Positions 43,923 through 61,738 of a stretch of DNA of 64,000 bases are shown here, piece after piece. Numbering within the stretch: position 1 is the stretch's first letter; each line of letters starts with the position of its first letter. The stretch comes from Chloroflexota bacterium (GTDB lineage Bacteria; Chloroflexota; Anaerolineae; Aggregatilineales; Phototrophicaceae), in NCBI GenBank assembly GCA_011523615.1, contig WTGJ01000020.1:129511-193510 (forward strand), read 5' to 3'. Made by a program: the position numbers and the translations under genes. Under the pieces are notes generated by a model. That model saw nothing but the letters and a program-made list of their open reading frames with translations. It ran no database searches and was not told the origin of the DNA.

Positions 43923-44825
43923 TCAAGTCAATACCGCTTGATCTTCCAACACGTCGCGCAATGCTTCGCGGATCAGATCTGGGCGACGGTCTTCTATAAT
44001 TAGACGGTTGAAATCTTTGATGAGGCCTTGCCCCATGCTGTCATCCAGGCATTCCACAAGGAACGGTTTTTCCAGGTCCACGCAGCGAGAAACAGCGCCC
44101 TGATCATGACCTGCGTCGGCCAGGATGATGCCATCGCGCCCGATGATGCAACTGCGGCCGAAGAGCATACCCGGTTTCCAGGGAATGCCATCGCGAACGC
44201 CAAAACTGGAGCTGACGAGAAAGATGCCCTGGTCCAGGGCGCGGGCACGCATCTGGATCTCGAAATAGATTTCACTGGGGCCGCTTTGCCAGCGCGGGTA
44301 AAACAGCACTTCCACACCTTTCATGGCGTAGATCATGGCGACTTCGGGAAAGTTGCAGTCATAACAGGTCATGATGCCGATGCGGCCGAAATCCAAGTCA
44401 AACACGGGGAAATCTTCGCCGGCCTGGATGTTGGGATAGATCAACTTTTCTGGCTGCGAGATGTGAGTTTTGTCATAACGGCCGATCTCTCGCCCCTGTC
44501 GATCCAAAAGAATTGCGCTGTTGTACAGACCGTCCTCACGTAATTCACCCACCGGCAGGATCAAATGCATGCCGTGCCGCGCTGCCAACTCGGCAAAGCG
44601 ATCCGTCAGTTCCGCCACGGCTGCGGTGGAAGCAGTATCCTCCAATGACAAAGAATGTCCTTCGACCTCAAAGATGTTGATCAATTCCGGCAATAGGACG
44701 ATATCCGGCCCTTCTCTGCCCTGTGCATCCGTGAGCTGCAGCGCGATTTCGATCATCTCCTCGTTGCGTAGGACTGCGTCCGGGCATGGCGGTTGGACGG
44801 TCGCCAATTTCACTTCTCGGGCCAC
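43923..44825 (-). CDS. Carbon-nitrogen hydrolase (nitrilase superfamily amidase)
   Basis: 300 residues from GTG at 44825 with AGGAGG six bases before it. The catalytic triad is Glu47 (LLPELI), Lys119 (YDKTHI) and Cys154 (MTCYDCNF). Members hydrolyse amides such as omega-amides, N-carbamoyl compounds or beta-ureidopropionate; motif SEIYFEIQMRARA matches the general group only. It is last in a minus-strand run after a peptide-type importer, so it may release ammonia from the imported amide. A hairpin separates it from the binding-protein gene. Confidence 0.9.
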   Translation of the reverse strand: MAREVKLATVQPPCPDAVLRNEEMIEIALQLTDAQGREGPDIVLLPELINIFEVEGHSLSLEDTASTAAVAELTDRFAELAARHGMHLILPVGELREDGLYNSAILLDRQGREIGRYDKTHISQPEKLIYPNIQAGEDFPVFDLDFGRIGIMTCYDCNFPEVAMIYAMKGVEVLFYPRWQSGPSEIYFEIQMRARALDQGIFLVSSSFGVRDGIPWKPGMLFGRSCIIGRDGIILADAGHDQGAVSRCVDLEKPFLVECLDDSMGQGLIKDFNRLIIEDRRPDLIREALRDVLEDQAVLT

Positions 44826-44859
44826 GGCTACCTCCTGAATATGGAAATGTATGGGTGAA

Positions 44860-44898
44860 ACACCGGGGCAACCTGAACCAGCCAGGCGCCCCGGGTGT
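44860..44898 (-). other. Hairpin between binding-protein and nitrilase genes
   Basis: GCCCCGGGTGT (44888-44898) and ACACCGGGGC (44860-44869) pair on either strand with one bulge, and CCTG/CAGG pair inside. It follows the binding-protein stop at 44915 and lacks a long T-run, so it may slow decay of upstream mRNA and lower nitrilase expression rather than end transcription. Confidence 0.5.
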
Positions 44899-44914
44899 GA
44901 ACGATTCCCCGAAA

Positions 44915-46486
44915 TTACATGGAGAGCCAGACGTCTTCGAGCTGACGATGGGCTTTATCCGGGAAGGGGACAAAGCCGTTGACTTCGTTGCGTGCGGCAA
45001 CCACGTGGTTCCGAGCATAGACCCAGGTAGCGGTCGGTTGGAATTCGGCGACAAGGATTTGGATATCACGCCAAATGGCCTTCCGCTCTTCTGGATCCGT
45101 GATCGCGGCGGCCGCTTGTACCATCGCGTCGAGCTCCTCCGAGCATGGTCCATAGTAAGTATGAGCCAGCGGTGAACTGCAGGCCAACAAGTTAAGAATG
45201 GATTCTGGCGTCGGCCCACCGATTTCCAGATTGGTCGTGAAGTGGAAATCTTCGTTCGTCAGGGCATCGACCCAGGCCGCACCACCTTCGTAGCCCACCA
45301 CTTCGCAATCGATACCGATGTCAATCATGTATTGTTGGAACAGCAGCGCGCCGTTCTTCATGATCGGCAAGGAATCGATGTAGACGGCGGTCATCGCGAA
45401 ACCATCCGGATGGCCGGCTTCTGCCAACAGGGAACGTGCCAGATCCGGGTCATATTGATAGTAGGGCAACTCGGAGGCGGGCACATGTAGATCTGCGAAA
45501 GCGGGTGTGATGACGCCAGAAACGGTGCCCAAACCAGCGCCCACCAGCTCCAACACTTCTTCACGGTTGATCGCAGATGAGATGGCACGACGTACCAGCA
45601 CATCATCCATCGGCGGCTTGTCACCATTGTAGCACCAGAAAATGCCACCATTGGCCGGCACTTCTAGCAACTGCAGATCCGGGTTGTCTACCAGCAGGGC
45701 ATAGTTGGTTGGGTCTTCCAGGGTGACGAAATGCGCATCACCAGCTCGCAAGGCGGCCAGCGCTGAGCTTTCCTCAGGGAAGTCTTGGGAAACGATGCCA
45801 TCGAGGTACGGTTTGCCTTCCTGCCAGTAGTTGTCGTTGCGGCTGAGGACCATTTCGATCTGCGGCCGCCAGTCTTCCAGCTTGAAGGGGCCGGTGCCGT
45901 TCACATTTCGGAGCAACCAGTCATCCCCCATATCGGCGCTGGAGGTGGGCAAGATGAAAGCCCAATCCTGCATCTGCGGGAAGATGGCGTTGGGTGCGGG
46001 GAGGTGGAAGCGGATCGTGTAATCGTCCACGATCTCAATGGAATCAATCTGCCCGATGCGGTTGATCCCCGGATGAGCCGTGTCCGGGTCCAGGATGATG
46101 CCGTAGCTATATTCCACATCGGCAGCGGTGAAATCCTCGCCATTGTGGAATTTGACACCCTGGCGCAGGTTGAATTCCCAGGTGGTGTCATCGACCTGAG
46201 ACCAGGAAGTCGCCAGTTTGGGAACGGCATTGAGCGTCGGCCCGGTCGTTACCAAGGGCTCGTAAAAACGAGGGAGCGTGATCTGCCCGGCTTCCAGGTT
46301 CAAAGAAGTCTTCGGGTCCAGATCTTCCACCGAGTACGTGCGTGCCTCGATCAAGACACCGCCGTGCTGCGGATCCTGAGCGAAAACCTGCCAGGCTGGG
46401 AGGGGCAGCGTACTCGCCGCGCCGGTGATGCCCGCCAGTTTCAAGAACTGCCGACGCGATAGCCCTCCCCGATTCAATTTGTTCAT
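44915..46486 (-). CDS. Peptide/nickel-type ABC transporter substrate-binding protein (SBP_bac_5)
   Basis: 523 residues. The N-terminus has a twin-arginine motif (SRRQFLK) and hydrophobic stretch ending before AQDPQHGG, so it may be exported folded. Family signature segments: ARTYSVEDLDPKTS, TWEFNLRQGVKFHNGEDFTAADVEYSY (broadly conserved in DppA/OppA) and DPELARSLL-like RSLLAEAGHPDG. Binds a peptide, opine or similar amide-containing ligand outside the cell. It follows its two permeases by 78 bp. ATPases for this importer are not in the window. Confidence 0.92.
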   Translation of the reverse strand: MNKLNRGGLSRRQFLKLAGITGAASTLPLPAWQVFAQDPQHGGVLIEARTYSVEDLDPKTSLNLEAGQITLPRFYEPLVTTGPTLNAVPKLATSWSQVDDTTWEFNLRQGVKFHNGEDFTAADVEYSYGIILDPDTAHPGINRIGQIDSIEIVDDYTIRFHLPAPNAIFPQMQDWAFILPTSSADMGDDWLLRNVNGTGPFKLEDWRPQIEMVLSRNDNYWQEGKPYLDGIVSQDFPEESSALAALRAGDAHFVTLEDPTNYALLVDNPDLQLLEVPANGGIFWCYNGDKPPMDDVLVRRAISSAINREEVLELVGAGLGTVSGVITPAFADLHVPASELPYYQYDPDLARSLLAEAGHPDGFAMTAVYIDSLPIMKNGALLFQQYMIDIGIDCEVVGYEGGAAWVDALTNEDFHFTTNLEIGGPTPESILNLLACSSPLAHTYYGPCSEELDAMVQAAAAITDPEERKAIWRDIQILVAEFQPTATWVYARNHVVAARNEVNGFVPFPDKAHRQLEDVWLSM

Positions 46487-46564
46487 GATTTGGCCTCACT
46501 TCCACTATTCGAACGATGGTACCGCTGAAGTTCTTCGAAATGTAACGCATCACACCAATAATTG

Positions 46565-47455
46565 CTAATCTCTGCCGCGAATCGTCGGATCCAGGGCATC
46601 TCTCATGCCATCACCCGCCAGGTTGAAGGCGAGCACCATGATCATGATGGCCAACCCAGGGAAGAAAGAGAACCATGGCGCGAGTTCCAGGACTTCGCGT
46701 CCTTCGCTTAACATTCTTCCGAGTGAAGGCTCTGGCGGTTGGACGCCTAAACCGACAAAGCCAAGGGCGGCTTCGATCAAGATCGCGTAAGAAATGCTCA
46801 ACGTCGATTGCACCAGGGCGATCGGGATCACGTTGGGGGCGATTTCCCGAAACAATATCCGTGGATGGTGCGCGCCGAGCGCAACACTGGCCTCGACATA
46901 GGGTTTTGCCCGCTCGACCAGCGTCGGCGCCCGCGTCAACCGCGCGAAAAAGGGGACATTGACGATGCCAATCGCCAGAATTGGGTTGATCAAACCCGCC
47001 CCCAAAACGCCGGAAAGTGCAATCGCCAATAACAACGTTGGGATGCCGAACAGCATATCCAACAAGCGGGACAAAGCCATGTCTACGCGGCCTCCTAGAT
47101 AACCCGAAATCAGTCCCAACACCACCCCCATAGCACCTCCCCAGCTCACCGAAACGATGCTGACCCACAGTGAGATGCGGATGCCAAAGAGCAGGCGGCT
47201 GAAGGTATCACGACCCAGGTTATCTGCGCCAAAGGGATGGGCCGCGCTGGGTGAGGCGAAACGCGAACGGATGTTCACCTCATCCGCCGCATAGGGCGCA
47301 ATCTGCTCCGCAAAAACAGCCAACAGAACGAAAATGAATACCAGGAATAGACCGATCACCACCAGACGATTGCGCAGGATTTCCCGCAGGAAATCGGCCA
47401 GCCAGTTACGGGCAACCCAACCGCTGCCCAACTCTCCCTCGTGGGCTGAGCTCAT
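46565..47455 (-). CDS. Dipeptide-type ABC transporter permease (DppC-like)
   Basis: 296 residues. N-terminal helix after a cytoplasmic tail, then the OppC/DppC segments HPFGADNLGRDTFSRLL, a central DMLFGIPTLLLAIAL and the EAA loop YVEASVALGAHHPRILFREIAPN. The ATG at 47455 overlaps the DppB-like stop (ATGA, 47452-47455). It pairs with DppB to form the channel for the binding protein encoded next. Confidence 0.93.
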   Translation of the reverse strand: MSSAHEGELGSGWVARNWLADFLREILRNRLVVIGLFLVFIFVLLAVFAEQIAPYAADEVNIRSRFASPSAAHPFGADNLGRDTFSRLLFGIRISLWVSIVSVSWGGAMGVVLGLISGYLGGRVDMALSRLLDMLFGIPTLLLAIALSGVLGAGLINPILAIGIVNVPFFARLTRAPTLVERAKPYVEASVALGAHHPRILFREIAPNVIPIALVQSTLSISYAILIEAALGFVGLGVQPPEPSLGRMLSEGREVLELAPWFSFFPGLAIMIMVLAFNLAGDGMRDALDPTIRGRD

Positions 47456-48411
47456 GCCTCACCCCCATAGCGGATGCGCGGGTTCAGGTAGGCATATAGC
47501 AAGTCGATCAGAAAATTGAGGCAGATGAATACCGTACTCGTCAGCAAGAGGGTGGCTTGAATGGTTGGGAAATCACGCGTTTGGATGGAACTCAGGATCA
47601 ATCGCCCCAGGCCAGGTAGGGTGAAAACCGCTTCTACAGGAACCGCGCCACCGATCAAGTACCCAGTCATCAAGCCAATGATCGTCACGATGCTGATGAG
47701 CGAATTGCGCAGCACGTGCCTGGCAATGACGGATCTTTCCTGAAGCCCCTTGGAACGGGCGGTACGCACATAATCGCGATGCAGCTCCTCCAGCACGCTG
47801 GAGCGAGTCAAGCGCATCACATTGGCGATATTTATCGTGCCCAGGGCGATGGCGGGCAGGATGAACGTCGCCAGGTTCTGGATGGGATCTTTCCATGGCG
47901 GCACAAAGCGGATGGGTGGGAACCAGTTGAACACGGTCAGGGCGATCAGGATCATCATCGCCCCTTGCCAGAAATCCGGCAAACCCAGCGCCGTGAAGGA
48001 GAGGACGCGACCGATATTATCGAACCAGCTGTTGCGCTTGATGGCCGAGATAGCCCCGAGGGGAACACCGATCACCACGGTGATGAGCATCGCCAGGGCA
48101 GTCAGTTCGATGGTGACCGGCAGGCTCTCAGCAATGAGCTCGCGGACCGGCACATTGTTGCGCCAGGAAGTACCCAGATTTCCCTGCAGGATTGAGGAAA
48201 GCCAGTTAAGGTACTGCACCGGAACCGGTTGATCCAAGCCATAGCGCTCTTCCATCTCGGCGATGAGCGCCGGGCTGCGATTGGCGAAGATCGATAATTT
48301 GGTATCGATGATGTCGCCGGGCAATACGTGAACGAGCAAGAACACCAGGATCGAAACGCCGATCAGCGTCAGCAGCGTGATCAACGAACGGCGCGCGATG
48401 TACCCTGTCAT
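47452..48411 (-). CDS. Dipeptide-type ABC transporter permease (DppB-like)
   Basis: 319 residues beginning MTGYIARRSLITLLTLIGVS, the standard DppB/OppB start, with six helices and the EAA loop YVRTARSKGLQERSVIARHVLRN. The upstream M20 gene ends 97 bp before it; this spacer holds a hairpin (TTCAGG at 48430-48435 and CCTGAA at 48447-48452) and no clear promoter, so one transcript from the dehydrogenase through to the nitrilase is plausible. Confidence 0.93.
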   Translation of the reverse strand: MTGYIARRSLITLLTLIGVSILVFLLVHVLPGDIIDTKLSIFANRSPALIAEMEERYGLDQPVPVQYLNWLSSILQGNLGTSWRNNVPVRELIAESLPVTIELTALAMLITVVIGVPLGAISAIKRNSWFDNIGRVLSFTALGLPDFWQGAMMILIALTVFNWFPPIRFVPPWKDPIQNLATFILPAIALGTINIANVMRLTRSSVLEELHRDYVRTARSKGLQERSVIARHVLRNSLISIVTIIGLMTGYLIGGAVPVEAVFTLPGLGRLILSSIQTRDFPTIQATLLLTSTVFICLNFLIDLLYAYLNPRIRYGGEA

Positions 48412-48508
48412 GCAACTCCGATCCGGCTTTTCAGGAATCCGATACCCCTGAAGTTAACCAGCCTGCCGGCGAATCCGCAAATTCATTGGCGCAGGGCAAA
48501 CATCGCTT

Positions 48509-49753
48509 TCAACGCGCCAAGTAATCGGCAATCAAGAGCGCATAGATTTGCGCCGCCTCAACCAGGGCCTCGATCGCTACATATTCATTCGGTCGGTGGC
48601 AATTGGGCAGGCGACCCGGGCCAAACGCCGGTATGGTGGGAATATCCGCGTAGCCCTGCCACCAGATCGCATCCGTGCCGCCGGGGAAATAACCCAGTGG
48701 TGGAGCTTCTGTCAGGATGGCCGCAGCCGCCCGCGCCGTCGCCAGAACCAGAGGATGGTCGGCGGCGATGGCCGTCGGCGGCGTCCAGGCGACGGGACCG
48801 TCTTCATAATGCCAGGATACCGCTGCCTCGGGGTAGATTGCGCGGAATTCGGCCAGCGCACGTTCGATGTCCGCGGACATTTGTTCCTGCGTCATGCCCG
48901 GCAAGGTGCGGATATCGCTGCTGATGGTGGCCTCGCCGGCGATTTTCGCCAGTCCCGCCCCGCCGCGGAATTGCGTGCCCAGGTTCACGGTGGGCCCCAC
49001 CGGACACAATTCGTTCGCGGGATAATTCAGCTGCAAGCGCTCCTGCAGAAACACCAGCAGTTGGCTGGCCGCCAGATTCGCGTTGACCACCGGGATGCGG
49101 TCGCTGATGCTGCTGTGCGTCTGGGTGCCTTGGATCTGAAAATGAAAGCAGGTCACACCGCGTGAAATGAGCGGCAACATCTCCCAGTTCTGCGTGATGC
49201 CACATGGCTCGGCGATGAGGCAAGCATCGGCGCGCAAACCCAGATCCTGGACCAGGTAGCGCGGCCCATGGAGGGCGCCGGCTTCTTCATCGGCGGTGAG
49301 CGCCAGCAACACTTTGCCGCAGATTCGATCGCCCAAACAATGCAGAGCCGCCGCCAAGCCATAGACCAAAGCAGCATCGGGCCCCTTCATATCGGCAGCA
49401 CCCAAACCATACAGCTTGCCTTCACGGATTTCGCCGACGTAGGGATCGCTCTCCCAATCGGACAGGGGATCCGGCGGTTTGGTATCCAGGTGCCCATTCA
49501 AGAGCAGAGTCGGACCATCCAGGCCGGTATCGTAGGTGCAGACCAGGTTGGCCCGCTGGTCGGTGGGCTCATGGATTTCGATCGCCTGCAGACCGAGCTG
49601 GCGCAGCGCTTCCGCCGCGATTTCCGCCGCCGCCCGTTCCAAACCAGGGGGGTTGGGGGTAGGTGTGGCGATCAATTGCTGGGCCAGGGCAATCATTTCC
49701 CCCTGCCGCTGCAGGATGAAATCGCGAACCCGTCCGACCGCTGCTTCATTCAT
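48509..49753 (-). CDS. M20 family deacylase/dipeptidase (ArgE/DapE/ACY1-like)
   Basis: 414 residues from the ATG at 49753 (AGGAGG upstream), not the longer frame, which lies inside the dehydrogenase gene. Metal ligands and base: H88 and D90 in LNGHLDTKPP, D121 in GAADMKGP, the E156-E157 pair in ADEEAG, then AEP. The late FPGGTDAIWWQ and CHRPNEYV carry the last histidine. It removes an acyl group from an N-acyl amino acid or splits a dipeptide in the cytoplasm. Overlaps the dehydrogenase stop by 4 bp. Confidence 0.92.
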   Translation of the reverse strand: MNEAAVGRVRDFILQRQGEMIALAQQLIATPTPNPPGLERAAAEIAAEALRQLGLQAIEIHEPTDQRANLVCTYDTGLDGPTLLLNGHLDTKPPDPLSDWESDPYVGEIREGKLYGLGAADMKGPDAALVYGLAAALHCLGDRICGKVLLALTADEEAGALHGPRYLVQDLGLRADACLIAEPCGITQNWEMLPLISRGVTCFHFQIQGTQTHSSISDRIPVVNANLAASQLLVFLQERLQLNYPANELCPVGPTVNLGTQFRGGAGLAKIAGEATISSDIRTLPGMTQEQMSADIERALAEFRAIYPEAAVSWHYEDGPVAWTPPTAIAADHPLVLATARAAAAILTEAPPLGYFPGGTDAIWWQGYADIPTIPAFGPGRLPNCHRPNEYVAIEALVEAAQIYALLIADYLAR

Positions 49754-50757
49754 TCGATCTCCTCCTCTAGTCGGATGGGCCGTCCCTCTTCCGCGCTGCG
49801 GATCAAGGCACGGGCGACCTGCAAACCACGGTAGGCGTCTTCCGGATCCAGCACCGTCAATGGTCGGCCTTCGCTGACGCATTGGACAAAGTACATGATT
49901 TCATCACGCAGGGCGCCCGTCACCGTCCCATGCACCACCGGCCAATAGCTGGTATCCGGCACTTCGACCCGTTCGCTCCAAACCTGGTAACTGTTGCCGG
50001 GTACTTCGGCCAAAGCCGTTCCCTCGGTACCCACCACCTCCAGCAAGCAATGACCGCGCCAGGGCGTCGCATCCGGCAGGTTCCAATTCGATTCGATGAC
50101 GCCCAAGGAGCCATCCTCCATCGTGATGATGCCCCAAAACACGTCGTCCCCCTGGCCGGAAACGCTCAGGGATTTCAGATATACCTCTACCGGGCGCAAG
50201 CCTTCATAGAACCAGAGGATTAAGTCGATGTCATGCACGCTGGTGGTGTACAGGCGGTTGGCAAAACGGTAGATGGGTATCTGCGAACGGACCACATTGC
50301 GCCGGCCATAGATGCTAAAAACCCGCCCCAGCTGCCCGCTCGCAATGCGCGCTTTGACATCCGCGCTGGCGGCATCGAATCGCAGCAGGTGTCCCACTTG
50401 CAATCGGCGACCCAGTCGTTCCGCCTCATCGATCAAGGTGCGCGCATCGGCGACATCGGGGCAGAGCGGTTTCTCGACGAAGATGTCGACGCCACGCTGG
50501 ATCGCAGCCATGGCGGGTTCGAAGTGATGGACATCCGGCGTCACAATGTGCAAAGCATCCAGCTTTACCTCAGCCAACATTTCTCGCCAGTCAATGAAGA
50601 CATGCCGAACGCCGTAATGAGAAGCCAGGTTTCGGGCACGTTCCTCATCAATGTCACATATGGCGACCAGATCCACGGATGCGGCATGGGCGAGCACATC
50701 CAGGTGGCGCGCACCAAAATCACCGACACCGATCAACGCGCTACGAATTTGACTCAT
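49750..50757 (-). CDS. Gfo/Idh/MocA-family oxidoreductase
   Basis: 335 residues. The N-terminal Rossmann domain begins SALIGVGDFGARHLDVL, the EKPLCP motif (lysine for catalysis) is near residue 95, and the C-terminal beta-sheet domain includes the VHDIDLILWFYEG histidine-aspartate segment. NAD(P)-dependent oxidation or reduction of a sugar, inositol or related compound. First gene of the minus-strand run that continues with the M20 enzyme and importer. It is transcribed divergently from amt across 119 bp. Confidence 0.92.
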   Translation of the reverse strand: MSQIRSALIGVGDFGARHLDVLAHAASVDLVAICDIDEERARNLASHYGVRHVFIDWREMLAEVKLDALHIVTPDVHHFEPAMAAIQRGVDIFVEKPLCPDVADARTLIDEAERLGRRLQVGHLLRFDAASADVKARIASGQLGRVFSIYGRRNVVRSQIPIYRFANRLYTTSVHDIDLILWFYEGLRPVEVYLKSLSVSGQGDDVFWGIITMEDGSLGVIESNWNLPDATPWRGHCLLEVVGTEGTALAEVPGNSYQVWSERVEVPDTSYWPVVHGTVTGALRDEIMYFVQCVSEGRPLTVLDPEDAYRGLQVARALIRSAEEGRPIRLEEEIE

Positions 50758-50876: not shown

Positions 50877-52286
50877 ATGCATCGCAAACGAACCGGATTC
50901 ACCTTGCTCATTTTGTTCATCCTCGCCTACCTGCTGGGTAGCCTGGTCGTGGGCGTGGCTGTGGGCAATCCCGGTGCGGAATGGCTTGCACAAAGCGATG
51001 ATGAAGCAGAAGAAGTGGCCGCAGACGATGGCGAAGAGGCCGCTGTGGCCAGCAATCTCGATACCGTGTGGATCCTCATCGCTGGCTTTTTGGTGTTCTT
51101 CATGCAGGCGGGTTTCGCGCTCGTGGAAGCCGGCTTCGTTCGCGCCAGAAATGTCGTGAACATCTTCATGAAGAATTTGTTTGATCTATCGGTGGGCGCG
51201 ATCGCCTACTGGTTGATCGGTTTCGGCATCATGTTCGGGGCCGGCAACCAATTCTTTGGCACCGAGTGGTTCATGTTGAACGGTCTGCCGGAGATTTACC
51301 CCGATCTGACCATCCCCAGTTATGCCTTTTTCTTCTTCCAGTTTGCCTTCGCAGCAACCGCAGCGACCATCGCCGCCGGCGCTATGGCCGGCAGGACCGA
51401 TTTCGGTGGCTACCTGCTGTGCAGCATCATCGTTACGGTGATCGTCTATCCGGTGGTCGGGCACTGGGTCTGGGGCGGCGGCTGGTTGGCGGAGATGGGC
51501 TTCGCGGATTTCGCCGGTTCCACCGTCGTGCATTCCACCGGTGCCTGGGTTGGCCTGATGGGTGCGTTGGCCATCGGGCCGCGGCAGAATCGCTTCGGCG
51601 CCCACGGTTCCCCCATCCCCGGCCACAGCATGACCCTCGTCGGGCTCGGCACCTTCATCCTCTGGCTGGGTTGGTTTGGCTTCAACCCGGGCAGCCAGCT
51701 GGATGCCGACGCCGCCAGCATCGCGCACATTACCGTGACCACCAATTTGGCCGCCGCTGCTGGCGCGCTCTCTGCCCTGTTCCTCGGTTGGTACCTGGTC
51801 GGCAAACCGCAATTGCCCTGGGGTTTGAATGGTGCGCTGGCCGGCCTGGTTTCCATCACCGCCGGCACTAATGCCGTCACCCCTTTGGAAGCGGTGATCA
51901 TCGGCGCAATCGGCGGCATTGTGATGTTTTACGGGGTGAATTACCTGGAAAGCCGCGAAGTCGATGACGTGGTCGGCGCCATCTCCGTGCACGGTTTCTG
52001 CGGGGTATGGGGGACACTGGCGGTCGGCATCTTTGCCGCGGAGTCGGGTCTGCTTCATGGCGGTGGGCTAGATCAATTGGTCACCCAAATCATCGGCGTG
52101 GCAGCCGTCGCTGTTTTCGTCCTGGCCGCATCCTGGGTGATGTTCAGGATCATCCAAGCTACGGTGGGCATCCGCGCGCCGGCTGATGCTGAAATCTTCG
52201 GCCTCGACATTTACGAACATGGTCTGGTCGCTTACCCCGAATTCACCAATTCGCCCAGCGAACCGACGCCACCACCACCCCAGTAA
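50877..52286 (+). CDS. amt: Ammonium transporter
   Basis: 469 residues. An N-terminal helix (LLILFILAYLLGSLVVGVAV) followed by an acidic stretch (DDEAEEVAADDGEE) looks like a cleavable or extra segment before the eleven-helix Amt core that starts at LDTVWILIAGFLVFFMQAG. The twin channel histidines are H219 (VVHSTGAWVG) and H372 (VHGFCGVWGT). It conducts ammonium inward across the membrane. GGGGGG before the ATG serves as ribosome-binding site. Its stop is 29 bp before glnK, the usual partner, which normally plugs the channel when nitrogen is plentiful. Confidence 0.95.
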   Translation: MHRKRTGFTLLILFILAYLLGSLVVGVAVGNPGAEWLAQSDDEAEEVAADDGEEAAVASNLDTVWILIAGFLVFFMQAGFALVEAGFVRARNVVNIFMKNLFDLSVGAIAYWLIGFGIMFGAGNQFFGTEWFMLNGLPEIYPDLTIPSYAFFFFQFAFAATAATIAAGAMAGRTDFGGYLLCSIIVTVIVYPVVGHWVWGGGWLAEMGFADFAGSTVVHSTGAWVGLMGALAIGPRQNRFGAHGSPIPGHSMTLVGLGTFILWLGWFGFNPGSQLDADAASIAHITVTTNLAAAAGALSALFLGWYLVGKPQLPWGLNGALAGLVSITAGTNAVTPLEAVIIGAIGGIVMFYGVNYLESREVDDVVGAISVHGFCGVWGTLAVGIFAAESGLLHGGGLDQLVTQIIGVAAVAVFVLAASWVMFRIIQATVGIRAPADAEIFGLDIYEHGLVAYPEFTNSPSEPTPPPPQ

Positions 52287-52315
52287 GATTCATTGGACGG
52301 AAGGAGAAACACCTG

Positions 52316-52687
52316 ATGATCAAGAAAATTGAGGCGGCGATTCGGCCGGATAAGATGAATCAAGTCATGCAGGCGTTGATCGACGAAGGGGCGATCGGCG
52401 TCACCGCCATCGAGGTGAAAGGGCGAGGGCGCGAAGGCGGCATGGAGCTGCAATGGCGGACGGGCACCTACTTGGTGCACCTCTTGCCACGCATCCTCAT
52501 CAGCATCGTCTGCAATGAAGATGATGTCGAGCGCAATGTAGAAGCGATCCGCAAGGCTGCTTTCACCGGGCAAAAGGGCGACGGCATCATCTTCGTATCG
52601 CCCGTGGAAAGCGTCATCCGCATCAGTACCGGCGAGGAAGACACCGACGCGCTCAGTTATGCCAGTGAAAATGGTGTCGCCGGCTAG
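52316..52687 (+). CDS. glnK: PII nitrogen-regulatory protein with altered nucleotide-binding residues
   Basis: 123 residues, PII fold throughout. Paired with amt, it should sense nitrogen status and block the channel. The T-loop keeps the modifiable tyrosine (Y52, E. coli Y51 position). Several residues normally contacting ATP differ: Q39 is Glu40, K90 is Ile91 (GDGIIF instead of GDGKIF), and R103 is Ser104 (VIRIST instead of VIRIRT); R101 is kept. K58 is Arg59. So ATP/ADP or 2-oxoglutarate sensing may be weak or different. The ATG has AAGGAG nine bases upstream. Ends convergently with the DUF3830 gene. Confidence 0.92.
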   Translation: MIKKIEAAIRPDKMNQVMQALIDEGAIGVTAIEVKGRGREGGMELQWRTGTYLVHLLPRILISIVCNEDDVERNVEAIRKAAFTGQKGDGIIFVSPVESVIRISTGEEDTDALSYASENGVAG

Positions 52688-52725: not shown

Positions 52726-53175
52726 TCAATCGCTGCGCCGCAGGTGGATGGGTCGCCGTCCTTCCCAACGGATGACCCCCGCCAGGCGGCGCAGTTCTTC
52801 TTGCCCGCTGATGAAATGGGCGAACAAGTTCACCGCAACCAGGCCGTCGACCATCCTGGGGCCCGTATTGCGATCATAAAAAAACATGATTTCACTGAAA
52901 TCCTGATCGACATCGATGAAGTCTTGCGCGCGCAAGGATGCAAAACCCAACTCCCAGGGCAGGCAGGTGGTCGTGGCGTTTTCGCGCTCGATGGGCTGAT
53001 ATTGCGGCAAAATGAGCGCCAGCTCCGGCCCGGAATAGGCGGCATGATGCAGCTGAAGCGATAAAGGGAGCAGATCCCAGACCAGGGCGCAGGTTTTGGG
53101 CGCCCGGTCATCCCAGAGAGCGGCACGGGCCACAAAGCCTTCCGCTTCGGAGTAAAACTCAATGGTGCGTTGCAT
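52726..53175 (-). CDS. DUF3830 family protein (cyclophilin-like)
   Basis: 149 residues from the ATG at 53175; the longer frame overlaps the amidohydrolase. Segments ARAALWDDRAPKTCALVWDLLPL and HHAAYSGPEL match DUF3830, a family of about 150 residues whose known structures resemble cyclophilins. Function is not established; members often sit beside amidohydrolases and hydantoinase- or creatininase-type genes, as here. Last in a four-gene minus-strand operon. Confidence 0.8.
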   Translation of the reverse strand: MQRTIEFYSEAEGFVARAALWDDRAPKTCALVWDLLPLSLQLHHAAYSGPELALILPQYQPIERENATTTCLPWELGFASLRAQDFIDVDQDFSEIMFFYDRNTGPRMVDGLVAVNLFAHFISGQEELRRLAGVIRWEGRRPIHLRRSD

Positions 53176-53186
53176 GATGCTGCTCC

Positions 53187-54032
53187 TCAATCCATCCGAT
53201 AAAGGCGTCGGGCATTCTCGCCCAGGATCAGCCCCTGCTCCGCAGCGCTGAGCGAAGCCAAAGTCGTTTCCAGTGCGGTCACGTGGCGGGTGTACGAACC
53301 AGCCAATGTGGCCACCGGCCAATCCGTGCCGACGAGCAAGCGCCGCGGGCCCAGCCGCTCCAACAGCCGGTCAACGAAGGGTTGCAATTCCGCAACGGAC
53401 CACTGCGACCACCGATCATCAGGAAACAGCGCCATGATGCCACTCAGTTTAACGTGAACCTGGGGCATGGCGGCAATTTCGCTGAGCAATCGCCGATCCC
53501 ATTCTTCCAGTGTGGACGCTGTGGGCTTGCCGAAATGGTTGATAACCAACGGCAAATCGGGGATGTCCTTCGCCAGAGAGACCACCAGCGCCCAGTGCTC
53601 TTGGCTGACCAGGAGTTCGAACAACCAACCGCATTCCGCCAGGGCGCGCAAACCGGAGCGGATCCCGGGTGAATGGAGCCAGTCTGCGTCTTTGCCTTCC
53701 AGTGGATCGCGGATGCCGCGCATCAGGGGATGGTGGCTGAGTTGTTGCAGGCGCTGCGAGAGCGCTGCGGATGCCAGATCCACCCAGCCCACCACCGCAC
53801 CGATGCATTCCTCTCGCGCAGCGATGGCCAGCAACTCGTCATTGTGCGCATCCGTTTGCGCCAATTGGATGAGCACTGCGCGGTCGATGCCCGCCTCTGT
53901 TAAATTCGCCTGCAATTCTTGTACGCTGAAATCACGCAACAAGGGTTGCAGTTCAGGCGGTCGGTCGTAACTTTCATACACCGCCTGATACTGGGAGCGC
54001 TGCCAGAGGTGGATGTGGGCGTCGATGTACAT
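53187..54032 (-). CDS. Amidohydrolase family 2 protein (lactonase-like)
   Basis: 281 residues starting MYIDAHIHLW, the HxH-containing N-terminus of the PF04909 group that includes L-fuconolactonase and L-rhamnonolactonase. Further markers are VINHFGKP (metal histidine), HVKLSGIM and LLVGTDWPVATL (catalytic aspartate), ending with NARRLYRMD, the usual C-terminal NA-R-Y. A lactonase role in sugar-acid breakdown fits the dehydratase and aldolase encoded divergently. Twelve bases separate it from DUF3830, and 18 from the creatininase-like gene. Confidence 0.9.
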   Translation of the reverse strand: MYIDAHIHLWQRSQYQAVYESYDRPPELQPLLRDFSVQELQANLTEAGIDRAVLIQLAQTDAHNDELLAIAAREECIGAVVGWVDLASAALSQRLQQLSHHPLMRGIRDPLEGKDADWLHSPGIRSGLRALAECGWLFELLVSQEHWALVVSLAKDIPDLPLVINHFGKPTASTLEEWDRRLLSEIAAMPQVHVKLSGIMALFPDDRWSQWSVAELQPFVDRLLERLGPRRLLVGTDWPVATLAGSYTRHVTALETTLASLSAAEQGLILGENARRLYRMD

Positions 54033-54050: not shown

Positions 54051-54971
54051 TCAGGGCTGGCCGCTGCGGTAGGCATCGGGGCGATAGCGGCCGACCCAGG
54101 CCGCTTTGGCCTGCATCTCACGCAATACAGCAGCGAATTTTTCCGACCAGATCTCGATCAGCGTTTCCGTTTGATCCGCAGAGATTGCTTCCCAATTCGG
54201 GGCGTCGGCCGCGGCCTGGAAACGATTATGGCGCAGGATGGTGCCTACGCCATAACGTGGATCGGCCAGGAAGGGATAGGGCGGTACCAATGCTCGAGAC
54301 AGGGGTTCCGGGGGTTGCGCTGCGACGAGGTCCGACCGCAGGGCATGCAACAAAGCCCAGCGCACGGGCATCGGCAAATCGCCTTCGCCACTGGCTTCCC
54401 ACCAGGGTAAATCGGCAATTTCGGCTACGTTGCGAAAGAAACTGGCGATGGAAACGAAGAGGAATTCGACATCCGGGCCATTCTCGACAAAATGCGCCGC
54501 GGCGTCGTAAGCAAAACCGAATGCTGTCTGGTAGCTGAATCCCTCACCCGCCATCCGCGGCCCGCCTTCCTCTTCCGTTGGCTTTGCCCGAGCTGGGATG
54601 CTCCCCGTTTTGCCCTGGGCATTGACGAAGACAAAGCGGCGGAAACCCTGACGGTACAAGTCTTGCAAAAGGCTGACCGTGAAATCCAGCAACACATCCC
54701 AGGGCAAGTGCATCGCTTCTGGCAAGAGGCTGGGTTCCGCTGGTGTGCTGAATTCCAGGGCAGGCAAGACCAGCGCACCGACTTCTTCGGCAATCCGAGC
54801 CGCTCCACGCTGTACCAGGCCTTCGACGATGAAGGCATCACAACCCACTGGCAGCGAGCCCGGCCAGGGCGCCAGGGAAGCCAGCGGGAGCACCACGATG
54901 TCACAACGCCGCACACGCTCTTCAATATCCGGCCAGGGCAATTCTTCAAACTGATGGAGCGCGCCGCTCAT
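54051..54971 (-). CDS. Creatininase-family protein lacking metal ligands
   Basis: 306 residues from the ATG at 54971 (AAGGAG upstream). Clearly related to the next protein (start FEELPWPDIEERV, then CDIVVLPLASLAPWPGSLPVGCD). The metal-binding motif E-x-H-G-x-H-L-P-x-x-T-D has become A-x-W-P-x-S-L-P-x-x-C-D, and NGHGGN has become NAQGKTG, so the metal-ligand Glu and both of these His are gone (one Asp remains). The HAGE-ET motif is also absent. Probably not a hydrolase; more likely a structural or regulatory subunit of the intact neighbour. Codon use looks normal and the frame is intact over 300 codons, so it is not a pseudogene. Confidence 0.85.
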   Translation of the reverse strand: MSGALHQFEELPWPDIEERVRRCDIVVLPLASLAPWPGSLPVGCDAFIVEGLVQRGAARIAEEVGALVLPALEFSTPAEPSLLPEAMHLPWDVLLDFTVSLLQDLYRQGFRRFVFVNAQGKTGSIPARAKPTEEEGGPRMAGEGFSYQTAFGFAYDAAAHFVENGPDVEFLFVSIASFFRNVAEIADLPWWEASGEGDLPMPVRWALLHALRSDLVAAQPPEPLSRALVPPYPFLADPRYGVGTILRHNRFQAAADAPNWEAISADQTETLIEIWSEKFAAVLREMQAKAAWVGRYRPDAYRSGQP

Positions 54972-54972
54972 T

Positions 54973-55767
54973 TTACTCTCCTTCAACGTTGCGTGGGGTA
55001 TGTTGCAGCTGCTCCAACAACTCTGCCATGCGAAGGACCCACTCATCCACCAACTCATGCCCATACTCTGGATTGCCGCGGTAGGGCCGGCCGCGCGCGC
55101 CGATACTCATCGTCTGCCAGCGATTCTGCAAGGCGCCGACCCCGTAATCATCATCCATGACAAAAGCATATTTGCTCAAGAATTCACCAAACATCTCGCC
55201 ATCGGTGGCGCGCCCCATATCCACCAGATCAGGACGCAGGGCGAGCATCAATGAGGTTTCGATCTCCCCGGCATGGCCGACCATGACATTGTTGGGGTCT
55301 GCGCTGACCCGCTCCCACAAGCCCAGCCCAAACGTCCCGGTGAAGAAGATTTCGGCATCCTCGTATGTTTGGCAAAACGCACTGCCGACCTGCCGGGGAT
55401 AGCTGTTGCCGCCATGGCCGTTGGCGATGATGAAGCGGCGGAAACCGCCCCGATACGAGGCTTCCATATGGGCCAGCAGAAAGCGGATGAGGATGGGCGG
55501 CGAAACGTTCACCGTCCCCGGAAAGCAGCGCGTGCTCGTGGTACTGCCATAGCGCAAACAAGGCATGACCACCGCCCCGACCGAATCGGCCACTCGTTCC
55601 GCGGCAAGGCGACACATCGCTTCGATCTGATAATTATCGGTCCCCACGGGAAGGTGAAAACCGTGTTCTTCCATCGCGCCGATGGGAAAGATGGCGATGT
55701 CGCATTCGCAAACACGCCCCTGAATTTCCACCCAGCTCATTTCTTTGTAGATCACCCGCCGTGGCAT
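54973..55767 (-). CDS. Creatininase-family amidohydrolase (intact)
   Basis: 264 residues from the ATG at 55767, the start that follows GGGGA and begins the conserved MSWVEIQGRV region. All family metal ligands are visible: E33 and H35 in MEEHGFHLPVGTD with D44, H118 in NGHGGN, and E168 in GHAGEIETS. Members include creatinine amidohydrolase, the mycofactocin maturation peptidase MftE and N-formyl enzymes; the substrate here is unknown. First gene of the operon; its stop is one base from the degenerate paralog's ATG. Confidence 0.92.
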   Translation of the reverse strand: MPRRVIYKEMSWVEIQGRVCECDIAIFPIGAMEEHGFHLPVGTDNYQIEAMCRLAAERVADSVGAVVMPCLRYGSTTSTRCFPGTVNVSPPILIRFLLAHMEASYRGGFRRFIIANGHGGNSYPRQVGSAFCQTYEDAEIFFTGTFGLGLWERVSADPNNVMVGHAGEIETSLMLALRPDLVDMGRATDGEMFGEFLSKYAFVMDDDYGVGALQNRWQTMSIGARGRPYRGNPEYGHELVDEWVLRMAELLEQLQHTPRNVEGE

Positions 55768-55884: not shown

Positions 55885-56808
55885 ATGGCTCAACTGGCAC
55901 CGCGAATCGAGGGTATCTTCCCCGCCATGTTGACGATGTTCACCGCCAGTGGCGAACTGGATCTGGCCGCTTCGGCCGAGCACGCGGATTGGCTCGTGAA
56001 GGCCGGCGTCCAGGGCCTGGTGCTTTCCGGGACCTCGGGTGAATTCATCGCCATGTCGATGGCAGAACGACGCGCGCTCTTCGCCGCGGTCATCGAAAGG
56101 GTGGCCGGCCGGGTGCCGGTATACGCCTGCACCAGCGCTTATGGCGACCGAGCGACGATCGAATTGACGGAAGCCGTGGAGGAGCTCGGCGCGGCGGGCG
56201 CGGTGCTGCTGCCCCCGATTTATCAGAAGCCGCCCAAACCCGCCATCATCGAACACTTTCGTGCCATCCGTCGCCACACCTCACTGCCACTCATGTATTA
56301 CGACAACCCCGCCTATGCAGGAACCGTCGAGCTGAACGCCTGGGAAGTGACGGAGCTGGTGAAAGAAGGGGTCTTCCAGAGCATCAAGCATACCTTCGCC
56401 AGCAATGCCGGCATCCACGACCTGCGTTACCTCTGTCCGGCGGAGTTCCGCGTCTTCCATGGTGGCTTTCGCACGGCGCTGGAGGGCTTGGCGGGCGGCG
56501 CACATGGTTGGATCAGCGGTTTTCTCAACGCATTTCCCGAACGTTGTGTCGCGCTGCATCAAACCGTGTGTGTGGAAAATGACCTGCGGCGCGGCCAGGC
56601 CATCTGGCAGCGAATCATCCCCTATACCCATTTATTTTATGCACCCGATGGCCTGGGGAATGCCGCAAACGACCTGGCCATCTGGCGTCATGTCCTGGAA
56701 CTGCGGGGGAGACATGGCGGCGATTCACGCCCACCCTTCTACCCACTGACGGATGCACAAAAAGAAACGGTCCGCGCTACATTTTCGCAGATCGAAAACG
56801 ACGGATAG
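55885..56808 (+). CDS. DapA/NanA-family lyase (2-keto-3-deoxy-acid aldolase-like)
   Basis: 307 residues. TIM-barrel Schiff-base lyase: SGTSGEF (48-54, the GTTGE-like carboxylate-binding motif), tyrosine near 138 in MYYDNP and lysine K168 in SIKHT. It could be dihydrodipicolinate synthase, N-acetylneuraminate lyase or a keto-deoxy-sugar-acid aldolase; position beside an enolase-superfamily dehydratase favours the last. Divergent from the creatininase operon across 117 bp. Next gene starts eight bases after its stop. Confidence 0.9.
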   Translation: MAQLAPRIEGIFPAMLTMFTASGELDLAASAEHADWLVKAGVQGLVLSGTSGEFIAMSMAERRALFAAVIERVAGRVPVYACTSAYGDRATIELTEAVEELGAAGAVLLPPIYQKPPKPAIIEHFRAIRRHTSLPLMYYDNPAYAGTVELNAWEVTELVKEGVFQSIKHTFASNAGIHDLRYLCPAEFRVFHGGFRTALEGLAGGAHGWISGFLNAFPERCVALHQTVCVENDLRRGQAIWQRIIPYTHLFYAPDGLGNAANDLAIWRHVLELRGRHGGDSRPPFYPLTDAQKETVRATFSQIENDG

Positions 56809-56816
56809 CCCCGGCG

Positions 56817-57995
56817 ATGCGCATCACTGCCCTCCGCAGCCACATCATCTCGCTCGGTTTCCGCAATGGGATCTTCACGGAAATCGAGACGGATACTGGC
56901 ATCGTCGGTTTCTCAGAGACGGTGTTGAAACGCTTTTCGCGCACCGTCGCCACCGGCATCCACGAGCTCGGACAAACGCTCATCGGCAAAGACCCACGCC
57001 GCATCGAAGCACACTACGAAAAATTGTATCGGGATTCCTTTTGGGTCGGCGGCCCTTTGCATTCCACGATCATCAGCGCTCTAGAGATTGCCCTCTGGGA
57101 CATTGTCGGAAAGGAGTTGGGTTGCCCGTTGTATCGGCTCTTTGGCGGCCCCACGCGTGAACGGGTCTTGTTGTACGCGCATTGTCAGAGCGGCGATTCA
57201 CCGGCGCAGTTCGCCGCGAATGTGCGCGCTCGACAGCGGGCCGGCTACCGTGCCATCAAGACGACTCTGCCTCTCTTTTACGGTGCTGGCCCACAAGGTG
57301 GCGAAACGTATTCTGGCACCCGCGGCAGCATCGACCCCGGCTGGAAAGAGACGGAATATCTTTCACCGGCGGTGATCGAAGGCATCGCCCAATATTTCGC
57401 CGCCGCGCGGGATGCAGCCGGTGCGGAAATGGGCCTGGCATTGGATGGTCACGGAAGGCTGAGCCCGGCCAACGCGCTTCGTTTGGCGGAAGCATTGGCT
57501 CCTCACCAATTGATCTTCTTCGAAGAGCCGGTGCCGCCCGAAAACATCGCCGCGCTCAGTTGGCTCACCGCGCGCAGCCCCATCCCCATCGCCTCGGGGG
57601 AACGTACAGTAACGATATACGATGCCGCCCAAATCATGGAACAACGGGCGGTGAATCTCTACCAGCCGGATGTGGTGAACTGTGGCGGCCTCTCTCAGGC
57701 GCGCAAAATGGCGGCCATCGCCGAGGCCCATTACGTCGGCATCGCGCCGCACAACCCCAACGGCGCCATGTGCAGCGCAGCCAGCCTGCACCTCGCGGCC
57801 AGCATCCCGAATTTCTACATGATGGAAACGATCGGCTCCGAGGAAGATGCTTCCCTGTTCGGTGAGATCGTCGATCGACCGCTCATCATGGAAGACGGAC
57901 ACTGGCTCTTGCCAGAAGCGCCCGGGCTCGGCATGAACCTGCGCCGCTCCGCCGTGGGAAAATTCCCGGGCGAAACCTTCCAGGGCTATCGCTGA
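56817..57995 (+). CDS. Mandelate racemase/muconate-lactonizing enzyme family (galactonate-dehydratase-like)
   Basis: 392 residues of the enolase superfamily. Metal ligands D210 (LALDGHGR), E236 (FFEEP) and E262 (ASGERT); H212 and H312 (APHNPNG) match the two histidines of the D-galactonate/mannonate dehydratase subgroups. It would remove water from a sugar acid to give a 2-keto-3-deoxy acid, which the DapA-like enzyme upstream could cleave. Enzymes in this group vary in substrate, so the sugar is not assigned. Confidence 0.9.
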   Translation: MRITALRSHIISLGFRNGIFTEIETDTGIVGFSETVLKRFSRTVATGIHELGQTLIGKDPRRIEAHYEKLYRDSFWVGGPLHSTIISALEIALWDIVGKELGCPLYRLFGGPTRERVLLYAHCQSGDSPAQFAANVRARQRAGYRAIKTTLPLFYGAGPQGGETYSGTRGSIDPGWKETEYLSPAVIEGIAQYFAAARDAAGAEMGLALDGHGRLSPANALRLAEALAPHQLIFFEEPVPPENIAALSWLTARSPIPIASGERTVTIYDAAQIMEQRAVNLYQPDVVNCGGLSQARKMAAIAEAHYVGIAPHNPNGAMCSAASLHLAASIPNFYMMETIGSEEDASLFGEIVDRPLIMEDGHWLLPEAPGLGMNLRRSAVGKFPGETFQGYR

Positions 57996-60325: not shown

Positions 60326-61738
60326 TCATTGCATCGCCGCCGCTAAGGCACCGCAGGCCGGGCAACCACCGCCCGGTCGGATGATGGCATAACCGGCTTG
60401 TGGGTCGCTGTCATAACGCTGGGCATCGATGTTCCATACGATGAACAAGCGTACATAGCCACTCGCGCGGCCCAGCCGCACTGCCGTTGCCAACCAATCC
60501 GCCTGCTCCGCGACGGAGGTATTCGCCCCCCAGGCGAAGCCACTGGAAATCGGGCCATAGCCTTCGGGTGAGACATAGCCAAATTCCGTAAAGCACAGCT
60601 GTTTGGTGGGAAAAACCGAGCGGTACAGTTCGACCATGGTCGGGTAATACCAGGTGTAATGCCCAGAACTGCCCACCGGTGCGCCACTGCGGGCCGTCGG
60701 GGGTACGGAGCCGGAATTGTAATGGATGCCGAGGCAGTCCATGTAGTTGGCGGCACCGGCTGCGGCCATCTGGCGGATGAAGACATCATCGTTGCAACCA
60801 CCCGCCTGACACCCCCCCTGGTAATAACCCGTGGGCGATGGTGCGCCGCTAATCACGAGCGTATTCGGGTTGGCTGCCTTGATGGCCGCATAGGCTGCTC
60901 GCAACATATCCGTGTAATTGCTGCCGCTGATGAAGCCATTCGGCCATTCGCGCTCGATATTCTGTTCATTCCAAACTTCAATTCCATCCGCGCCATGGGA
61001 AGCCAACGAGCCGAGGAAGGCTGCGTAATCGCGGTAGAATTGGGCGGGGTTGTTGCGCAATTGATGATGGTCGCCGATGACGCTGTAGAGGATGCGCAAA
61101 CCCGCATTGTGCGCTTGTTGGATCTGCCCGGCTTGCCCGGAGGCATCCGTGCCGCCACCATAACGAAGCTGGAACTTGATCCACGTCATGCCTGCGCTGC
61201 GCATCGTGCCGGTATGGCCAAAGCCAAACGCCTGCCCCCCCAATTCGAAACCGCCGCCGGCAGCCGGTGGCGGGAGGTTGGCGATCGGGATGTTCCCCCC
61301 GCCTGTGTCGGCAACCGGCGGCGGTGCGTTGGGTACCCGGAGAACCTGGCCGACAAAGATCTGGTCTGGATTCGCGATGCCGTTGATTTCCGCAATCAAG
61401 AAGTAATTGGTGTTGAAACGGGCAGCAATCGTACCCAATGTATCGCCCCGCACGACCGTGTACGTGCCGTATTCAGCGCTGGGTGCGGCGCCCTCGGGGC
61501 TGCTGACCGGCGTTTGACCGGGTCGGACGAGGGTCATACCGGAGTGGATGAGCTCCGGGTTGGTGATGTTGTTGGCGGCGATGAGTTCATCCACGGTGAC
61601 GCCCATCGCCCGCGCGATGGACCACAGGGTATCGCCGGGTTGGGTCACATAGCTGCCCTGTGCGGATGCTGCTGATGTGAGGATCAACAGCGGAATCAAA
61701 CAGAGCAACGAAAAGATCGCAGTAGTGCGTTTCATCAT
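60326..61738 (-). CDS. Secreted LysM protein with glycoside-hydrolase-like domain
   Basis: 470 residues. Signal peptide (IFSLLCLIPLLILTSAASAQ), LysM domains at about 29-72 and 92-135 (both with the GDTL core), a Pro/Gly linker (137-165) and a C-terminal TIM-barrel-like domain. In that domain, E258 (EVWNEQN) and E385 (CFTEFGYV) match the acid/base and nucleophile of clan GH-A glycosidases such as families 5 and 39. LysM binds peptidoglycan or chitin, so it probably stays on the cell wall and cuts a glycan there. The substrate is unknown. A C-terminal C-x2-C (GGCPACG) is present. Confidence 0.9.
   Translation of the reverse strand: MMKRTTAIFSLLCLIPLLILTSAASAQGSYVTQPGDTLWSIARAMGVTVDELIAANNITNPELIHSGMTLVRPGQTPVSSPEGAAPSAEYGTYTVVRGDTLGTIAARFNTNYFLIAEINGIANPDQIFVGQVLRVPNAPPPVADTGGGNIPIANLPPPAAGGGFELGGQAFGFGHTGTMRSAGMTWIKFQLRYGGGTDASGQAGQIQQAHNAGLRILYSVIGDHHQLRNNPAQFYRDYAAFLGSLASHGADGIEVWNEQNIEREWPNGFISGSNYTDMLRAAYAAIKAANPNTLVISGAPSPTGYYQGGCQAGGCNDDVFIRQMAAAGAANYMDCLGIHYNSGSVPPTARSGAPVGSSGHYTWYYPTMVELYRSVFPTKQLCFTEFGYVSPEGYGPISSGFAWGANTSVAEQADWLATAVRLGRASGYVRLFIVWNIDAQRYDSDPQAGYAIIRPGGGCPACGALAAAMQ

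Follow-up and report, generated by a model that had tools for sequence, protein, structure and literature searches.

Two creatininase-family genes lie one base apart in the window (the whole stretch of 64,000 nucleotides analysed here); the product of one carries every metal-site residue of the family and that of the other has lost nearly all of them. There is, in our judgement, about an even chance that they are a tandem-duplicated pair with divided labour, a two-metal catalytic subunit and a hydrolytically dead, rebuilt partner that co-assembles with it. The course of events envisaged is that a creatininase-family hydrolase gene duplicated in tandem, with the first gene coming to specify a catalytic subunit with a two-metal site, and the second a hydrolytically dead paralog of the same fold in which a long conserved insert replaces the active-site loop and the C-terminus is extended. 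The two proteins would then co-assemble, the pocket of the catalytic subunit may be shaped or gated by the dead one's insert and tail, and the pair may work with a divergently encoded dehydratase and aldolase in breaking down a sugar acid or lactone, the presumed type of substrate. Creatininases of the PF02633 family form homo-oligomers, which in the best-studied case are hexamers, and we know of no described member that does otherwise.

Arrangement of the gene pair

The original prediction that two creatininase-family genes are separated by one base, the degenerate copy being full length and coupled to the intact one, is borne out: a single base (54972) lies between the stop codon of the intact gene and the ATG of its paralog, and the 306-codon frame of the latter is uninterrupted by frameshift (Table 1). 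Since the AAGGAG in the final codons of the intact gene is well placed to serve the degenerate gene, both proteins are very likely made from a single mRNA. Their products are 24% identical.

Table 1. Features of the creatininase pair and of the genes beside it (window coordinates)
Feature	Coordinates	Strand	Remarks
Intact creatininase-family gene	54973..55767	-	264 aa; E33/H35/D44, NGHGGN (H118) and HAGEIET (H165/E170) all kept
Degenerate paralog	54051..54971	-	306 aa; A34, W36 and Q119, D45 kept, L/R for H165/E170; conserved insert and C-terminal tail
Shine-Dalgarno-like AAGGAG	54978..54983	-	Within last codons of intact gene, just upstream of ATG of degenerate gene; sequence ...GTTGAAGGAGAGTAAAATGAGC...
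Remodelled loop of the former active site, with insert and conserved stretch, PRMAGEGFSYQTAFGFAYDAAAHFVENGPDVEF	54465..54614	-	Codons for residues 120-169 of degenerate protein
C-terminal tail, GRYRPDAYRSGQP (GRYRPDAY.SGQP)	54054..54092	-	No counterpart in intact paralogs; conserved in the other genome
Divergent DHDPS/KDG-aldolase-family gene	55885..56808	+	63% identical to counterpart beside the pair in JAHBVK010000038.1
Sugar-acid dehydratase gene, enolase superfamily (ManD/galactonate-dehydratase type)	56817..57995	+	67% identical to counterpart in JAHBVK010000038.1
Amidohydrolase_2 (lactonase-like) gene	53187..54032	-	After the pair; one near the pair in JAHBVK010000038.1 too, 27% identical

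Family membership and loss of metal-site residues

Both proteins exceed the cut-off of 31.3 bits for the Pfam Creatininase model (PF02633), the intact one with 179.5 bits over its whole length and the degenerate one with 66.3 bits over residues 9-121 only. Both fall far below the equivalog cut-offs of TIGR04448 (creatininase sensu stricto), TIGR03964 (MftE) and NF041098 (IolN). In an alignment of 89 creatininase-family sequences from the same phylum, all 87 outside the degenerate type (24.5 effective sequences) share E33, H35, D44, G108, H118, H165 and E170, in the numbering of the intact protein. The intact protein keeps the whole set, that is E..H..D, the His of NGHG, and the His and Glu of HAGxxET. 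At the same seven positions the degenerate copy of the window has A, W, D, G, Q, L and R; it keeps D44 and G108, and of the six invariant Glu, His and Asp residues five are gone, so that it lacks the metal-site residues of the family. The changes first noticed, E-E-H-G-F-H to A-P-W-P-G-S and NGHGGN to NAQGKT, are present as described; to these are now added the absence of the third invariant motif, HAGxxET, and the persistence of the Asp of the first (D44, which is D45 in the degenerate protein), neither of which had been remarked on.

In Pseudomonas creatininase one metal is held by E34, D45 and H120 and the other by H36, D45 and E122, with His178 being catalytic; the positions in the window correspond to these by alignment. 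As the bridging Asp is the sole ligand left, two-metal hydrolysis of the ordinary type by the window copy is very unlikely. By its sequence, then, the degenerate gene belongs to the creatininase family by descent, without the standing of a catalytic member.

Predicted structures agree with membership of the fold. In AlphaFold2 models built from four sequences only, the intact protein (mean pLDDT 71.6) matches solved creatininases at Z 19.6-22.0. The degenerate protein (mean pLDDT 60.5) matches them at Z 14.1-16.5, with an rmsd of 3.8-5.3 over 206-217 residues, the next unrelated structure scoring 7.6, and it is accordingly modelled as having retained the creatininase fold. Confidence in the insert (residues 120-149) is under 50, too weak to place its direction.

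A second carrier, and distribution of the pair

The same pair, in the same gene order, is present in JAHBVK010000038.1, from a metagenome-assembled Anaerolineae bacterium (G099) of another family in the same order. Identity between the two genomes is 62-63% for the intact proteins and 51-52% for the degenerate ones. In the second carrier 35 bases separate the paired genes, so not every carrier has them tightly coupled. The degenerate protein of this second carrier retains E33, D44 and H118, with Q for H35 and L/K for H165/E170. The description 'stripped of its metal site' is therefore apt for the window copy, with D45 alone of the six Glu, His and Asp residues, and does not extend to its counterpart, which keeps the Glu, Asp and His of one site.

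The degenerate gene is found in two of 154 genomes of the order (that of the window and one of the 153 others), and a close ortholog of the intact gene in the same two only, at 578 and 564 bits with the next genome at 102. PF02633 matches as such occur in 118 of the 154, and among the matches listed no other neighbouring pair was seen in the order. A GTDB-wide scan of contigs with two short peptide patterns, which distant relatives may escape, yielded no additional carrier, the one matching locus being that of the genome already known. Samples of 400 genomes of the phylum and 396 of the class provided no ortholog beyond the window; the one other phylum match (G352) was set aside as an intact creatininase of the ordinary kind, of which the N-terminus alone had matched. 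No ortholog was found in viral contigs, and a search of plasmids gave short matches only, of about 30% identity. Recurrence in an independent genome excludes a sequencing or assembly artefact.

The outcome that was to have told against a maintained paralog, its being missing or frameshifted in most relatives, was not what was found: neither carrier has a frameshift or stop in the degenerate gene, and no lone copy of either paired gene occurs in the 154 genomes of the order. Conserved pairing thus extends to a second, distant genome, though with two carriers this amounts to one independent comparison.

Insert, loop and tail of the degenerate protein

Following the NxxG loop, about 25 extra residues are inserted in the degenerate protein, along with a second, shorter insertion of 6; GEGDLP, a small insertion, takes the place of part of the HAGxxET region. 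The best-conserved 33-residue stretch of the two degenerate proteins is identical at 29 positions, as against 50% for the alignment in full (permutation p 0.0005). It overlaps the insert and continues just past it, where the active-site loop used to be, and has many polar and aromatic residues. Together with the conserved tail, this indicates a copy that has been rebuilt as well as degraded. Because the two degenerate proteins differ in their ligands but not in the insert, the role for which the copy is selected is probably not metal-dependent catalysis.

Variation of ligands around a constant insert fits a dead partner and a stand-alone protein alike. The second of these, the main rival and in our view the less likely, is that the degenerate copy has been neofunctionalised: working by itself at a different step of that sugar-acid pathway, it would be a ligand-binding protein or an enzyme using one metal or none, its site built from the insert. 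The position and composition of the 29/33 stretch would suit it, as would the retention in the second carrier of one complete set of Glu, Asp and His, and the degenerate gene travels with genes for two pathway enzymes. However, the window copy is also without the Glu and His of that remaining site, which makes a common one-metal chemistry unlikely, and co-assembly accounts more readily for the two paralogs being neighbours in both genomes.

Origin and maintenance

In a tree of 39 representatives of the family, the two degenerate proteins form one clade (support 100/100) and the two intact proteins another (99/92). The two clades are joined at 94/61, under a strict threshold of support, and are probably sisters. 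The simplest reading of this grouping of all four is a single tandem duplication before the two lineages split. The branch common to the degenerate copies is long, 1.04 changes per column, and older than the split of the two families.

Differences between the degenerate genes of the two genomes, by codon position, are 0.354, 0.266 and 0.649, and this pattern, with 51% identity of the products, shows purifying selection. Both the codon pattern and its retention beside the intact gene in a distant genome speak for the degenerate copy being maintained. The greater number of Glu, Asp and His residues kept in the second carrier implies stepwise loss: the ancestor of the degenerate copies was probably already without H35, H165 and E170, and the window lineage would have lost two more ligands later. 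The window copy has also evolved faster than its ortholog, with 25 lineage-specific changes against 6 (chi-square 11.6); for the intact proteins the figures are 16 and 6.

Faster change and piecemeal loss of ligands are features that a dispensable copy, in slow decay since the tandem duplication, might also display. Such decay is nevertheless improbable: the long common branch predates the split of the families, the frames are open in both genomes with a codon pattern of purifying selection, and the insert and tail are conserved.

Proposed co-assembly and its relation to known systems

Speaking for co-assembly of the two proteins are the one-base gap, the Shine-Dalgarno sequence inside the first gene, the sharing of the pair across families and the lack of lone copies. 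Against it are that there are two carriers only and that the node of the duplication is at 94/61. The 25 changes against 6 in the window copy fit partial relaxation, and the best-conserved part occupies the former active site, which might point to a new site instead of contact with a partner. A stricter form of the proposal, held only tentatively, is that the hydrolase functions solely as a hetero-oligomer, the loop and tail of the dead paralog completing or gating the pocket of its partner.

The solved creatininases (PF02633; Pseudomonas creatininase 1j2t/1q3k, and 3lub and 3no4) have the fold and sequence family of both window genes; the degenerate gene differs from them in being without five of the six invariant residues and in having the insert and tail. 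Pairs of active and dead paralogs occur in several enzyme families. In the heterodimeric metalloprotease TldD/TldE it is TldD alone that carries the metal ligands; TldE has neither metal nor ligands, and activity requires both proteins (PMC5810440). The likeness lies in co-retained paralogs, one with a metal site and the other, in the window, lacking metal ligands save one Asp. The co-retention that a TldD/E-like arrangement calls for is seen in two carriers and a clade at 94/61, the copy of the second carrier keeping three ligands. The fold and reaction are unrelated, however, and the complex is proven for TldD/TldE and proposed for the creatininase pair. Having been retained and rebuilt over a long period, the degenerate copy is probably a helper subunit of the intact enzyme.

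The 3-dehydro-scyllo-inosose hydrolase IolN (NF041098), of a carbohydrate pathway, is for both genes one of the best curated relatives, and its model is about the length of the degenerate one; the window genes score 40 and 86.5 bits, however, against a cut-off of 245. Adjacent or overlapping creatininase genes also occur in tandem in nine genomes of one genus of another family in the same phylum (L076, L079-L081, L083, L084, L089, L090 and L093). All metal motifs are present in both members of those pairs, which were rejected as support for a pseudoenzyme.

Text searches of open-access papers for hetero-oligomeric or pseudoenzyme creatininases returned nothing relevant. An obligate hetero-oligomer, if true, would be the first pair of active and pseudoenzyme subunits in the creatininase family. 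The two-stage loss, which has left the ligands of one metal site in the JAHBVK010000038.1 copy and a single residue in the window copy, would provide a natural series for the evolution of a hetero-oligomer from a homo-oligomer.

Neighbouring genes

The pair and the divergent aldolase gene occur jointly or not at all among the 154 genomes of the order; at E <= 1e-60 the aldolase has only the same two carriers, in both of which the dehydratase gene adjoins it. This four-gene module is absent from near relatives of the carriers. The all-or-none occurrence suggests that the module spread by horizontal transfer or was lost repeatedly. The module's pathway is probably one of sugar-acid or lactone catabolism, and the pair would then mark an uncharacterised pathway of this kind in the order. 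Such a patchy distribution would also be expected if the four genes merely moved as a unit and the degenerate copy had a role with no bearing on the intact one, such as regulating the divergent operon, which is improbable in that no DNA-binding domain was found in the degenerate protein, the creatininase fold runs along its length, and patchy distribution leaves the loss of motifs unexplained.

Neither gene of the pair nor the aldolase had a match in a genome of the same genus as the second carrier (G549), which points to transfer or loss within a genus.

The amidohydrolase, given its low identity to that near the other pair, is not clearly its ortholog, nor are the Gfo/Idh-type dehydrogenases near both pairs (32% identical). 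Just downstream of the amidohydrolase gene is a DUF3830 gene (52729-53139, - strand; 78 bits), and beyond this, at 43923-50757, are genes for a Gfo/Idh dehydrogenase, an M20 deacylase, a peptide-type ABC transporter and a nitrilase-family protein. An ammonium-transporter-like gene and one for a PII-like regulator (50877-52687, + strand), so named from the appearance of their sequences, separate the creatininase cluster from the Gfo/Idh and M20-deacylase genes. On the other side of the pair, at 60326-61738 on the - strand, is a gene whose product, judged likewise, is probably secreted and has two LysM-like repeats together with a domain resembling those of glycoside hydrolases.
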